This document shows positions 2,966-19,711 of a DNA stretch of 19,926 nucleotides, piece after piece. The stretch covers positions 1-19,926 of the forward strand of contig RGUK01000015.1 of assembly GCA_010027825.1 (NCBI GenBank). The letters are read 5' to 3'. Both the position numbers and the translations under genes were made by a program. The stretch comes from a bacterium (GTDB lineage Bacteria > Dependentiae > Babeliae > Babeliales > RVW-14). The notes beneath the pieces are model-generated. The model ran no database searches and had not been told where the DNA came from. It worked only from the letters and a program-made list of their open reading frames with translations. Position 1 is the first letter of the stretch; each line of letters begins with the position of its first letter.

Positions 2966-3148
2966 ATGGAGAGCGATTTAAATCTCAGCCGCGACAGCCG
3001 GCAAGCAGCATTCCGTGTGATTGGGATCGAGCGACCACCAAAGATTCGCGAATCGGTGGAGCTTCCCGCGCGGGAATACAAGCGGCGCATTGCACGCTAC
3101 AGCCGGCGAGCAGACAAAGGCCAACCACTTTTTCAGGAGAGAGTATGA
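2966..3148 (+). CDS. Hypothetical basic protein, 60 aa
   Basis: A short Arg-rich protein (REYKRRIARYSRRADKG near residues 36-52) with no recognised domain. GAGGG lies eight bases before the only in-frame ATG, and its TGA overlaps the next start. It is the first gene after the rightward promoter. The high Arg content suggests nucleic-acid contact but does not prove it. Confidence 0.55.
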   Translation: MESDLNLSRDSRQAAFRVIGIERPPKIRESVELPAREYKRRIARYSRRADKGQPLFQERV

Positions 3149-3321
3149 GCGAAGCAACCGTCCAGGATTTCTCCGAGCATGCGGCATGGGTACAGAAGCT
3201 CGAAGACGAGCTTGTGGACCTGAAAACACAGGTGAAGGAGAAGCGCGACGAATTAAAGAAGGCTATCGAGCAATACGTCTCGATGGGATTGCAAGAGAAG
3301 GGGTCGGCACAAGATGAGTGA
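3145..3321 (+). CDS. Small coiled-coil protein, 58 aa
   Basis: The start has AGGAGAG just upstream and overlaps the previous stop (ATGA at 3145-3148); the end overlaps the nuclease start by eight bases. Residues about 14-45 form a highly charged heptad-like helix (WVQKLEDELVDLKTQVKEKR and onward), typical of a short coiled coil. Function unknown; the position immediately before the nuclease suggests an early recombination-module accessory. Confidence 0.72.
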   Translation: MSEATVQDFSEHAAWVQKLEDELVDLKTQVKEKRDELKKAIEQYVSMGLQEKGSAQDE

Positions 3322-4318
3322 TATCGACCCCTACGACCGTGCAACCATCGACGCATTGATTACAGGTTATCGCGAGCACTACGCACGCGATACTTTTCGA
3401 GCAGTCGCCATCGAGCAAGAGTTCCGCTTGCCGATCTTTAACCCGCACAGCAAGCGGGTGAGCACATCAAAGACCTATGAGTATTCCGGAAAGATCGACC
3501 TACTCGTAGACGATCCAATGCAACCAGGAAAGATCTGGTTGATGGATCACAAGACCACCTCGGAGGATATTGAGAACCAAGCATCCCCCTTTTGGATGCG
3601 TCTCAGGAACGCAACCCAGCCAACTCATTACCAACTTGCACTCAAGCAACTTGGCCTTGAGATCGACGGGTGTGTCTGGGATGTCATCAAGAAGCCGACC
3701 ATCAGGCCACGCAAGCTTACCAAGGAGGAAAAGAAAGAACTGGAAATGTTTGGCACGTACCACGGCGTCTTGATTGACATGGGGTATGTACCTGATGCAG
3801 AGCAGCCCGAGCACTACGCGGCTCGTGTGCTATCCGATATCCGGGCAACACCTGGTAAGTACTTTCAGCGTCAGATTGTGCCGCGAACCAATGAAGACCT
3901 CTACGAGTATGCGTCGGAATTGTTTGGGATTTCGACACGAATTCGTGAGTGTGAAACCGACGGCCGGTTTTACAAGACGGGCGAGCCACACTCTTGCACG
4001 CTTTATAACCGCACATGCGAATACCTTCCGTTGTGTGTGCGTGAAGGATCGACCTTTGATTACGTGCAGTCACCTGGGCACTCTGAATTAGAGGACCAGG
4101 GAGACGGGTTGAAGATCCTGACCAACTCAAGCCTATCGATGTTTCGTCAATGCGAACGCAAGTACCGCTACCGTTACGTCGATGGTCTCAAGCCGATGTG
4201 TGAATCGTCTTCGCTGGGGTTTGGCACGGCGTTTCATGTCGCGATGAATAACTTCTGGTCCGACCGTCTGGCCCCAGAAAGCGAACGCATTTATCTGAAG
4301 GGGGTGTCTGTTGAGTAA
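3314..4318 (+). CDS. PD-(D/E)XK (RecB/Cas4-like) Fe-S nuclease with circularly permuted motif order, 334 aa
   Basis: Residues 59-62 (GKID) and 78-80 (DHK, followed by TT) are nuclease motifs II and III; Q107 in THYQLALKQLG is the following Q motif. Cys228, Cys235 and Cys241 form the C-terminal three-Cys part of an Fe-S cluster site. What is normally the N-terminus of such proteins lies at the C-terminus: LTNSSLSMFRQCERKYRYRY (269-288) with Cys280, then GFGTAFH (302-308) with the GxxxH histidine. All usual motifs are therefore present, but the order is II-III-Q-CCC then C-GxxxH. The protein probably acts as an exonuclease in recombination with the ATPase and SSB downstream. The start follows AAGGGG; the stop overlaps the next start by eight bases. 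Confidence 0.88.
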   Translation: MSDIDPYDRATIDALITGYREHYARDTFRAVAIEQEFRLPIFNPHSKRVSTSKTYEYSGKIDLLVDDPMQPGKIWLMDHKTTSEDIENQASPFWMRLRNATQPTHYQLALKQLGLEIDGCVWDVIKKPTIRPRKLTKEEKKELEMFGTYHGVLIDMGYVPDAEQPEHYAARVLSDIRATPGKYFQRQIVPRTNEDLYEYASELFGISTRIRECETDGRFYKTGEPHSCTLYNRTCEYLPLCVREGSTFDYVQSPGHSELEDQGDGLKILTNSSLSMFRQCERKYRYRYVDGLKPMCESSSLGFGTAFHVAMNNFWSDRLAPESERIYLKGVSVE

Positions 4319-5177
4319 TGGAATGCTGCCGATGCGCAAGACGCAGCGGTTCACGTTGGAGTCGATCTCGAATCGACCTAAAGAAAAAGTTTCCCATCGG
4401 ATCGTCATCAACGGAATAGCCGGTATCGGAAAGACTTCCCTTGCCGCACAATTCCCAAGCCCGGTGTTCATTCAATCTCGCGGCGAATCTGGCCTACAGG
4501 TGTTGGAGTCGGCCGGCATTTGCTCCGCACCGATTATGCCTTTCGAGCATGACGGTAAGACGTTCTATGAGGCGCAGTCCTACGAGGATGTCGCCGACGC
4601 TCTTGACTGGTTGGCGAGCAATGACCACCCATACAAGACGCTGTGTATCGACGTGTTGAATGGGGTTGAAAAGCTGATTCATGAGAGCGTTTGTAACTCG
4701 CAATTCGGGGGCGACTGGGGGGACAAAGGCTTCTCTTCATTCATGCGCGGCTACGAAGTGTCGCTACCCAAGGTCAAAGATCTTTGTATCCGTCTCGATC
4801 GCTTGCGGATGAACGGAATGACAATCGTGCTTTTGTGTCACACGAAGGTCAAGAACTTCAAGAATCCTGTCGGCCCCGACTACGACCAGTACGTACCCGA
4901 CATGCATGAAAAGACCTGGAATATTCTGTACGGATGGTCCGATATTGTTCTGTTCTGCAACGCTGAAGTCGAGGTGAAGACCGACAAGAGCAGCGACAAA
5001 AAGGGAAAAGCAATTTCCCAGACGCGCGTCATGTACACCGAGGGCTCGGCGGCATGGCACGCGAAGAACCGGCACAATTTACCTCCAGAAATTGAAATGG
5101 GGCGGAGCGCGCAGGAGTGCTACGCGAACCTGGTTGAAGCAATGAAACAAGCGAAGACACAGAATCAGAAAGGGTAA
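4311..5177 (+). CDS. RecA-like phage ATPase, Sak4/AAA_24 type (single-strand annealing/recombination)
   Basis: The protein is 288 aa. A Walker A loop lies at about residues 35-43 (GIAGIGKTS), a hydrophobic-Asp Walker B at 110-114 (TLCID), and a LLCHTKVKNF segment at about 174-183 in the sensor position of AAA_24 phage proteins. These belong to the RecA fold and include Sak4-type annealing ATPases that work with a phage SSB, which is the next gene. The start is probably the TTG at 4311, with AAGGGGGTG just upstream and an eight-base overlap with the nuclease stop; ATGs at 4323 or 4332 are alternatives. The tail is Lys/Gln-rich. Confidence 0.85.
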   Translation: MSNGMLPMRKTQRFTLESISNRPKEKVSHRIVINGIAGIGKTSLAAQFPSPVFIQSRGESGLQVLESAGICSAPIMPFEHDGKTFYEAQSYEDVADALDWLASNDHPYKTLCIDVLNGVEKLIHESVCNSQFGGDWGDKGFSSFMRGYEVSLPKVKDLCIRLDRLRMNGMTIVLLCHTKVKNFKNPVGPDYDQYVPDMHEKTWNILYGWSDIVLFCNAEVEVKTDKSSDKKGKAISQTRVMYTEGSAAWHAKNRHNLPPEIEMGRSAQECYANLVEAMKQAKTQNQKG

Positions 5178-5180
5178 ACA

Positions 5181-5726
5181 ATGAGCTACCGAAACGGAAC
5201 TTACACAGCGAGGATCTTGCAGGCTGGCCACGCGATGAAGCGAACCAGGGAGGACGAAGAATACCTCCGACTGTACTTTCAGATCCAACCCATATTGTGG
5301 CATGGCCCTGATGGTGACTACGACGTGTCACAATTCGACGCGCAATACGTCAACTTCAATCTGATCCGGTCCAATGAGGACTCGATCAAGTACGCGATGT
5401 CGGATTTGGAATCAATCGGATTTGTCGGGACAGTCAATGAGTTTTTGTCGGCGTCGTGGTCGGGGATCGAGATTAAGGTCCATTGCCGACAGAGTGAATA
5501 CAAGGGGAAGATCTACTTCAACTGGAATATCGACCGGCCAAAGCAACCGGTTGACGAATCCACCCTGTCACAGTTTGACCGGCTGATGAAAAAGTTCGTA
5601 CCGAAGAATCCACCGAAGAAATCGGTCGAGGCGGTTCAGCCGAAGCCATCTCCGCCGAAGAAGGAACCTGTGACCGCACCAACTCAGAGTGGCGAGGAGT
5701 CGCCGTCGGACGAGATTCCGTTCTAA
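5181..5726 (+). CDS. ssb: Phage single-stranded DNA-binding protein with SSB-type acidic tip, 181 aa
   Basis: The N-terminal ~120 residues have a beta-rich, OB-like composition (NGTYTARILQAGHAM at the start, KIYFNWNIDRP near 109-119). A Pro/Lys-rich flexible linker (about 138-168) and an acidic C-terminal tip ending SPSDEIPF follow. That tip is the hallmark by which SSBs recruit partner proteins. The gene starts three bases after the ATPase stop. N-terminal similarity to classical SSB is weak; the assignment rests on the tail and the neighbours. Confidence 0.8.
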   Translation: MSYRNGTYTARILQAGHAMKRTREDEEYLRLYFQIQPILWHGPDGDYDVSQFDAQYVNFNLIRSNEDSIKYAMSDLESIGFVGTVNEFLSASWSGIEIKVHCRQSEYKGKIYFNWNIDRPKQPVDESTLSQFDRLMKKFVPKNPPKKSVEAVQPKPSPPKKEPVTAPTQSGEESPSDEIPF

Positions 5727-5841
5727 TCCCACGATGGGTTGAACGCACGCACGCGAGCGGGCTTTCGATTCACGATGAATCGGGAGCAATGGCAAAGCCA
5801 AGATGGTGCCGGCGGCGGGGGCCGGCGCGTGCGGATGCCGT

Positions 5842-5910
5842 GGCCTTGCGGGGCGCGGCTTGGCAGGGCTTGGCAGGGCAAGGCACCGCAACGCAAGGCA
5901 AGGATTCTTT
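5842..5910 (+). repeat. GGCNN pentamer repeat block A
   Basis: Five-base-period repeat in exact register from 5842: GGCCT TGCGG GGCGC, then units such as GGCTT GGCAG, ending CGCAA GGCAA GGA, followed by a T-rich end (TTCTTT). It is followed by AAGGGGG and a three-codon frame, ATGAAACACTGA (5924-5935). The rest of the 5727-5841 gap is GC-rich with no gene that I can support. Confidence 0.93.
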
Positions 5911-5951
5911 AAGGGGGTTGGCAATGAAACACTGATGAAGCAACCACGGTC

Positions 5952-6003
5952 GGGCACGGCCTGGCTGGGCAAGGCTGGGCACGGCATGGCAAGGCAAGGA
6001 TTT
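5952..6003 (+). repeat. GGCNN pentamer repeat block B
   Basis: Nine units in register from 5953 (GGCAC GGCCT GGCTG and onward to GGCAA GGCAA), ending GGATTTAA. It lies immediately upstream of the 185-residue gene at 6028, whose own Shine-Dalgarno (AAGGAAAA) follows the block. Confidence 0.93.
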
Positions 6004-6585: not shown

Positions 6586-6610
6586 TGGAAACACCGGCTT
6601 GGTAAGTCGT

Positions 6611-6663
6611 GGCTGGGCACGGCCAAGCACGGCTTGGCATGGCAAGGTATGGCAAGGTTTTTT
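6611..6663 (+). repeat. GGCNN pentamer repeat block C
   Basis: Nine units in exact five-base register (GGCTG GGCAC GGCCA AGCAC and onward to GGCAA), ending AAGGTTTTTT at 6654-6663. It begins about 25 bases after the stop of the 185-residue gene. Confidence 0.93.
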
Positions 6664-6716
6664 GGAGTCGAATTAAATGGGAAACGCGAGAGCACCGTAA
6701 CAAATAAACATAGCGA

Positions 6717-6780
6717 GGCCGGGCTAGGCATGGCGTGGCGTGGCGCGGCGCGGCCGGGCATCACAAGGCAAGGGTTTTTT
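6717..6780 (+). repeat. GGCNN pentamer repeat block D
   Basis: Eleven units from 6717 (GGCCG GGCTA GGCAT GGCGT and onward), one deviating (CACAA), ending GGCAAGGGTTTTTT. An ATG follows directly at 6781, but the frame runs into block E and is not a convincing gene. Confidence 0.93.
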
Positions 6781-6801
6781 ATGCCGCCAACAAAACAACA
6801 T

Positions 6802-6868
6802 GGCTCGGCAGGGCCGGGCATGGCCCTGCACGGCGAGGCCACGCAACGCAACGCAAGGATCTTCTTTT
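6802..6868 (+). repeat. GGCNN pentamer repeat block E
   Basis: Eleven units from 6802 (GGCTC GGCAG GGCCG and onward), the last drifting to CGCAA CGCAA CGCAA, then GGATCTTCTTTT. It lies directly upstream of the 165-residue gene at 6882. Confidence 0.92.
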
Positions 6869-7379: not shown

Positions 7380-7386
7380 GAATCTT

Positions 7387-7458
7387 GGCTCGTCTGGGCT
7401 TAGCACGGCAAGGCCCGGCAGCGCACGGCGAGGCATCGCAACGCAAGGGTTCTCTTTG
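7387..7458 (+). repeat. GGCNN pentamer repeat block F
   Basis: Twelve units in register from 7387 (GGCTC GTCTG GGCTT and onward), ending CGCAA CGCAA GGG and TTCTCTTTG, then an ATG at 7459. The following frame (38 codons) runs through block G to end in Met-Lys-His-stop and is probably not a gene. Confidence 0.92.
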
Positions 7459-7490
7459 ATGCTGATGAATGAATCAAAACTAATTTGCTT

Positions 7491-7552
7491 GGCTTGGCGA
7501 GGCACGGCAAGTCCCGGCAAGGCTTGGCAAGGCATGGCAAGGGTTCTTTTTG
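7491..7552 (+). repeat. GGCNN pentamer repeat block G
   Basis: Ten units in perfect register (GGCTT GGCGA GGCAC GGCAA GTCCC and onward to GGCAT GGCAA), ending GGGTTCTTTTT. Like block A, it is followed by a GAGGG ribosome-site-like sequence and ATGAAACACT, here ATGAAACACTAA at 7564-7575. Confidence 0.93.
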
Positions 7553-19151: not shown

Positions 19152-19421
19152 ATGGCAGTTGTCACGGCGGATTTCACGAGCACAAACGATTCTCTATCGT
19201 TCTCGGGCCAGTCTCCTCCAATGATCCATATTGGCGGCACATGGTCTGGTATGTTGGTGTTTGAGAACTCGGTACGTCCAAATCTCTGGGTAACGCTGAA
19301 CACCTATACCGGCAACGGTGGCGATGTGGCCAAGGTGAAAGAAGGTGCGTTCCGGGCACGGCTCACCAGCTACAGCAGCGGCACCGTGAACGTTGCAATC
19401 AGTGATAGCGTACTTCCGTAA
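19152..19421 (+). CDS. Small beta-rich structural-type protein, 89 aa
   Basis: Alternating strands (LSFSGQSPPMIHIGGTWSGM, VTLNTYTGNGGD, AFRARLTSYSSGTVNVAISD) with little helix suggest a beta-sandwich of virion or tail-associated type. GGAGG precedes the ATG at good spacing. It lies between the long beta-helix protein and the HNH gene and may be a receptor-binding accessory. Not recognised more closely. Confidence 0.72.
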   Translation: MAVVTADFTSTNDSLSFSGQSPPMIHIGGTWSGMLVFENSVRPNLWVTLNTYTGNGGDVAKVKEGAFRARLTSYSSGTVNVAISDSVLP

Positions 19422-19711
19422 TGCCCAAAGCACCAAAGTCTCATGTGCCGGCAAGCAGGCCAACCAGGAGGCACCAAGACACCAACAGGCCCAACGCTCA
19501 CCAGCGTGGCTACTGTAGCGACAGGTGGCGACGGCTAAGGCTGATGGTGCTTAACCGTGACTTGGTGTGCCAGGTGTGCGGAGTAGTGCTTAGTAGGTCG
19601 TTTCACTGTGATCATATAGTTCCGAAGAAAAGCGGAGGACAAGACACAATGGAAAACCTGCAAGCGCTGTGTAACAAATGTCATTCAATCAAAACAAAGG
19701 AGGGACTGTAG
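19421..19711 (+). CDS. HNH endonuclease, 96 aa
   Basis: Motifs in order: RWRRLRLMVLNRD, CQVC (first zinc Cys pair), HCDHIVPKKSGG (catalytic HxxH-type His with Asp), ENLQALCNKCHSIKT (Asn and second Cys pair). This is the phage HNH type often placed beside terminase genes, where it takes part in DNA packaging cleavage; homing use is an alternative. The first ~30 residues are basic and disordered. Its ATG shares a base with the preceding stop. Confidence 0.92.
   Translation: MPKAPKSHVPASRPTRRHQDTNRPNAHQRGYCSDRWRRLRLMVLNRDLVCQVCGVVLSRSFHCDHIVPKKSGGQDTMENLQALCNKCHSIKTKEGL

Follow-up and report, generated by a model that had tools for sequence, protein, structure and literature searches.

The gene at positions 3314..4318 of the window (the whole 19,926-nucleotide stretch of DNA that was analysed) very probably codes for an active Cas4/AddB-type PD-(D/E)XK exonuclease whose chain is circularly permuted and which serves, with Sak4 and a single-strand DNA binding protein (SSB), in a phage recombination module. 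The enzyme is a DNA-trimming exonuclease of soil and water phages, and its pieces stand in rotated order. Many protein families include circular permutants; what is unusual here is that a single family of presumed Fe-S nucleases has been permuted more than once. Because canonical and differently rotated forms surround the presumed cluster in one family, the origin of the permutations can be tested. The same series makes it possible to test whether a fold becomes permutable when a metal cluster links distant parts of its chain.

Rotated order of the nuclease

The features of the gene and its upstream neighbour are as follows.

3144..3317, plus strand: small upstream ORF of 57 amino acids, whose stop overlaps the nuclease start
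3314..4318, plus strand: nuclease P0001, predicted circularly permuted PD-(D/E)XK exonuclease, 334 amino acids, ATG start
3341..4048, plus strand: nuclease core, residues 10-245, with Pfam and PHROG matches
3488-3499, plus strand: motif II of the core, G59xxD62
3545-3553, plus strand: motif III of the core, D78HK80
3617-3631, plus strand: motif IV of the core, Q102xxxY106
3995-3997, 4016-4018 and 4034-4036, plus strand: core cysteines C228, C235 and C241
4049..4102, plus strand: linker, residues 246-263, with an HxEL motif (H256, E258, L259)
4103..4261, plus strand: moved N-terminal segment, residues 264-316, which matches profile starts
4151-4153, plus strand: fourth cysteine C280, in the moved segment
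4223-4237, plus strand: G304xxxH308, in the moved segment

The original prediction had described a nuclease with intact motifs (GxxD, DHK, the Q motif, the cysteines, RYRY and GxxxH) in truly permuted order. All of these motifs are present where it had placed them, and FRQC280, RYRY and G304xxxH308 come, in this order, after C228, C235 and C241. Pfam PDDEXK_1 (PF12705) matches P0001 in two stretches (E 9.5e-18; 65.5 bits against a cut-off of 22), and the best stretch places residues 12-241 on positions 93-246 of the 247 in the profile. When the C-terminal 85 residues were searched alone, they matched profile positions 3-56 (E 8.3e-08); for residues 1-249 searched alone, no Pfam match was reported. 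PHROG 1218 also matches in pieces, the first covering residues 10-242 on profile positions 98-330 (E 1.2e-23) and the C-terminal piece falling on positions 5-58 (E 6e-12). The canonical relative P0187 gives a single PDDEXK_1 stretch, residues 18-317 on positions 2-246. Thus, P0001 is not collinear with the PDDEXK_1 profile and is a permuted variant of the family. In the block-order analysis, every block was present once and the order was rotated.

Canonical PDDEXK_1 and PHROG 1218 exonucleases such as P0187 and P0129 share the motifs, the four cysteines and the tail motif with P0001. However, they are built as N-segment then core, whereas P0001 is core then N-segment, and the HxEL motif of its linker, internal in P0001, lies in the C-terminal tail of the canonical relatives. 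The nuclease domains of AddB and AdnA, the Argonaute-associated Cas4 protein ACE1, Cas4 and Exo5 also have the canonical order, unlike P0001. The sequence shows that the P0001 chain starts at or after the stretch that follows the GxxxH helix in canonical relatives, and then runs through the core (motifs II-IV and three cysteines) and the short linker to the segment that carries GxxxH and the fourth cysteine.

The AlphaFold2 model of P0001 has a pLDDT of 93.5 and a pTM of 0.89, and is confident through the C-terminal segment. The alignment of the model, from its residue 1 onwards, begins at residue 89 of ACE1 and at residue 868 of AddB; therefore, the N-terminal parts of those structures have no counterpart before the P0001 core. 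The fold is predicted to stay that of the canonical enzyme. A sequence search for solved structures returned none, apart from two chance antibody matches (E 0.17 and 0.28). The swapped profile matches, the confident model, the alignment ranges on ACE1 and AddB and the large family with the same order (next section) all support a true circular permutation.

A separate gene for the missing N-terminal half would have told against this reading. Within the window, no other ORF of at least 30 amino acids matched the N-segment models. The small upstream ORF has no PHROG match and does not supply the segment. A second N-segment was sought in 75 loci of the core-first order (hereafter type-1), and just two weak matches appeared at E <= 0.5 (L055, 0.16; L064, 0.19).

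Spread and conservation of the core-first order

The protein search gave nine matches including the query; the rotated order is shared by seven relatives, at 67 to 33% identity, but not by P0009. A profile search gave 272 proteins, of which the best 120 were taken further; among 128 proteins compared in all, 127 have the core followed by the N-segment. The sole exception is again P0009, which lacks an N-segment match and by eye is canonical with a short N-terminus. The survey of homologues proposed earlier found the order in 200 of 306 sequences, which were not deduplicated. Because these sequences share the rotated order, the arrangement in the window is no local accident.

Two isolated phages of Tunturiibacter psychrotolerans, Tunturi_1 (ORF59) and Tunturi_2 (ORF56), encode the permuted form. 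Their exonucleases are about 31% identical to P0001 and have Sak4 and SSB neighbours as in the window, but a small ORF lies between exonuclease and Sak4 there. When the canonical P0187 was used as query, 30 phage records matched: P0187 aligned to the Tunturi proteins just from its residue 102, and to those of the other phages from residue 2-18. The Tunturi genes are annotated merely as exonuclease, and canonical-order proteins of named phages as Cas4 family exonuclease. Profile annotation hides the rotation, and aligning the entire nuclease family collinearly would give a wrong result.

On viral contigs, the order is permuted in all 12 loci L004-L015 and in 57 of the 61 loci L035-L095. The other four are L091, which is split by a frameshift, L092, a core piece alone, and the canonical L093 and L094. 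At L091:3310-4330, the permuted nuclease lies in two overlapping frames, through a sequencing error or because the gene is broken. Loci L001, L016-L024, L027, L028 and L030-L032 are canonical and distant, and an N-segment match was absent in L025, L026 and L029. A first scan of genome contigs gave no locus; a second gave two, on MAG contigs from a Red Sea Deltaproteobacteria bin and a Planctomycetaceae bin, both with the permuted form. No plasmid match was found, and the window had no near match in phage DNA.

A 2012 survey of the superfamily reportedly touches on permutations. The stem "permut" is absent from the main text of a 2007 survey, and our literature search, whose sources were partly accessible and which printed spellings of PD-(D/E)XK may escape, found no description of a permuted Cas4, RecB or PD-(D/E)XK nuclease. 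The main text of the Tunturi phage paper contains neither "exonuclease" nor "Sak4".

We then compared 125 aligned rows (P0009, P0010 and P0013 were excluded). D62, D78, K80, Q102, Y106, C228, C235, C241, C280, G304 and H308 have a frequency of 1.0, and G59 of 0.952. Conservation is 0.744 in the moved segment, 0.675 in the core and 0.165 in the tail after the segment. Thus, the moved segment is as well conserved as the core, and the tail beyond it is not. In 25 listed locus pairs, selected so that their segments were of the same length and 60% or more identical (near-copies were kept), the dN of the moved segment was 0 to 0.18 and the dS 0.06 to 1.3 (undefined in two). Purifying selection acts on the moved segment.

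The pattern of Fe-S nucleases, in which the N-segment contributes one cysteine and three more come after the core, is invariant in the 125 rows, and the fourth cysteine now follows the other three, as had been noted before. By analogy, the four cysteines are presumed to be cluster ligands, a role for C228, C235, C241 and C280 that we take from the AddB and Cas4 cysteines.

Could the C-terminal segment be a non-functional remnant left by a duplicated gene, or could misassembly or chimerism have produced the order? The homologues come mostly from metagenomic contigs, and permutation would presumably have passed through a duplication. However, the order is retained down to 33% identity and occurs in two isolated phages and in 200 of the 306 surveyed sequences, C280, G304 and H308 do not vary, and dN of the segment is below dS. 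We consider such an origin extremely improbable.

A second rotation and the route of permutation

In a sister group of 93 proteins, 79 are canonical, 11 carry a different rotation (type-2) and three are core-first. The type-2 proteins are P0155, P0158, P0164, P0169, P0175, P0180, P0182, P0183, P0185, P0193 and P0195; two type-2 loci are L102:3487-5070 and L103:5962-7134. In these proteins, the chain is opened between motifs II and III, which places motif III close to the N-terminus and the catalytic Asp of motif II close to the C-terminus. They have the same blocks and tail-to-head join as P0001 but a different opening point. Because there are two different breakpoints, at least two rearrangements occurred in the nuclease family.

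We made a careful tree from 65 rows of our own choice (306 columns, 200 bootstrap trees). The 11 type-2 rows form one clade (support 100/97), and the type-1 rows were united in 0 of 200 bootstrap trees. The core-first P0179 and P0205 fall inside a group of 43 rows (95/96) that also contains canonical and type-2 proteins. The core-first P0221 adjoins P0219, a long-branched canonical protein from an Elusimicrobia MAG, and was joined to it at 95 in another tree; this pairing may mark another permutation event or be a long-branch artefact. Two of the three core-first proteins of the sister group may represent separate events.

It is possible, though doubtful, that all type-1 proteins, P0179 and P0205 included, descend from one permutation event. 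In the AU test, a single clade of the 23 type-1 rows was not rejected (p 0.144), with a log-likelihood 28.5 lower, and on the quick core tree, which was so poorly optimised that constrained trees were up to 42 log-likelihood units better, the tree that held them together was not worse (p 0.516). Against a single event stand the bootstrap trees, the 43-row group and the place of P0221 beside P0219, which widens the split. Moreover, the best core identities of P0179 and P0205 are with type-2 proteins (59% and 57%), and by eye P0179 retains a C-terminal helix that P0001 lacks there. Placing P0179 with P0205 was not rejected (p 0.495), nor was placing both with type-2 (p 0.592). Three or four rearrangement events are likely. 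The Sak4-associated Cas4-like exonuclease is, in our judgement, probably a natural hot spot of permutation, with the canonical and at least two rotated orders in one phage family and possibly a third or fourth event in P0179 and P0205.

The junction itself was also compared. An HxE[LI] motif occurs in 63 of 80 canonical tails, in 127 of 130 type-1 linkers and in 10 of 11 type-2 linkers, and the median lengths are 24, 23 and 34 residues, respectively. The motif in the linkers indicates that both permuted forms link the former C-terminal tail to the former N-segment. The new type-1 ends fall between the GxxxH helix and the core of canonical proteins (median gap 25). Since the type-1 linker is short, the C-terminal segment might pack on the core of a neighbouring subunit, as in a domain-swapped dimer, rather than on its own. 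The monomer model is confident overall, and we regard such a swap as unlikely.

The permutation may have arisen by tandem duplication or head-to-tail fusion, followed by loss of the outer parts. It had been proposed that a trimmed tandem duplication was the origin. The permutation itself held; a footprint of duplication, seen as similarity between the two ends, did not, since 5 of 127 type-1 sequences reached p<0.05, which is the chance level. A resemblance of the ends noticed by eye in P0205 lay outside the 12 best of this test. Tandem duplication remains the likely route. Because both would hold the Fe-S cluster, the old N- and C-termini are probably side by side, in which case a join between them and a break in a surface loop would be cheap. 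The cluster may act as a staple: it would hold the old termini to each other, and the fold would then tolerate different sites of chain opening.

An intein-based origin was considered and rejected. In the type-2 protein P0175 (residues 1-258), motif III is followed immediately by a LAGLIDADG domain and an end resembling that of an intein, near the type-2 breakpoint. The intein splicing model scored 20.9, below the cut-off of 35.8, and the idea concerns this one protein and reveals no route.

Neighbouring genes and predicted function

Two ORFs follow the nuclease.

4311..5177, plus strand: next gene, Sak4-like RecA-core annealing protein (AAA_24; PHROG 124, E 1.9e-42)
5181..5726, plus strand: weak match to the single-strand DNA binding protein family PHROG 378 (E 0.00089)

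The Sak4 of the window is 42.8% identical to that of Tunturi_1, and the homologue of ORF 5181..5726 in Tunturi_1 and Tunturi_2 is annotated as SSB. The type-1 loci with 900 nt or more of downstream sequence all have a Sak4-like ORF after the nuclease on the same strand (68 of 68); where 2 kb or more is available, an SSB-like ORF is present in 57 of 62. These counts include the window and repeated phages. The canonical sister loci L101, L104 and L105 also adjoin Sak4, and in the type-2 loci Sak4 lies 28 nt (L102) and 2.2 kb (L103) downstream. In the distant canonical loci L016-L032, a Sak4 match was absent, and L094 and L097-L100 gave weak matches of 13-31 bits. Therefore, among canonical loci, a Sak4 link is shown just for those of the close sister group, L101, L104 and L105. 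As a check for a CRISPR Cas4, P0001 gave no PADLOC match, and no Cas protein was found among ten neighbours scanned in parts of the window.

The lambda Red exonuclease is encoded with the annealing protein Red beta, like the pairing of exonuclease and Sak4 here. However, lambda exonuclease is not known to carry an Fe-S cluster, and Red beta belongs to the Rad52-like proteins instead of being a RecA-core Sak4. HK620 Sak4 is an ATP-dependent annealing protein that is stimulated by its SSB (PMC5928155). Because Sak4 is downstream in all 68 judged loci, the nuclease likely resects DNA ends for phage recombination. Such resection of duplex ends would be metal-dependent, and its polarity, at a guess, 5'-to-3'. 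SSB would coat the resulting single strand and Sak4 would anneal it. From gene content, the most likely role of the nuclease is to produce the single-stranded DNA used by SSB and Sak4.

Several other features were observed in the window. Islands of degenerate five-base GGCAN-like repeats lie at 5826-5999, 6590-6858 and 7381-7547, mostly between the main ORFs, with 14 overlapping copies at >=60% identity. An 18-base tandem repeat of 5.3 copies (1321-1415), in the minus-strand ORF 1063-1575, encodes CSLGDG repeats. A CsrA-like regulator is encoded on the minus strand at 1708-2028 (PHROG 9500, E 4e-11), and an HNH endonuclease at 19421-19711 (PHROG 589, E 3.2e-20).
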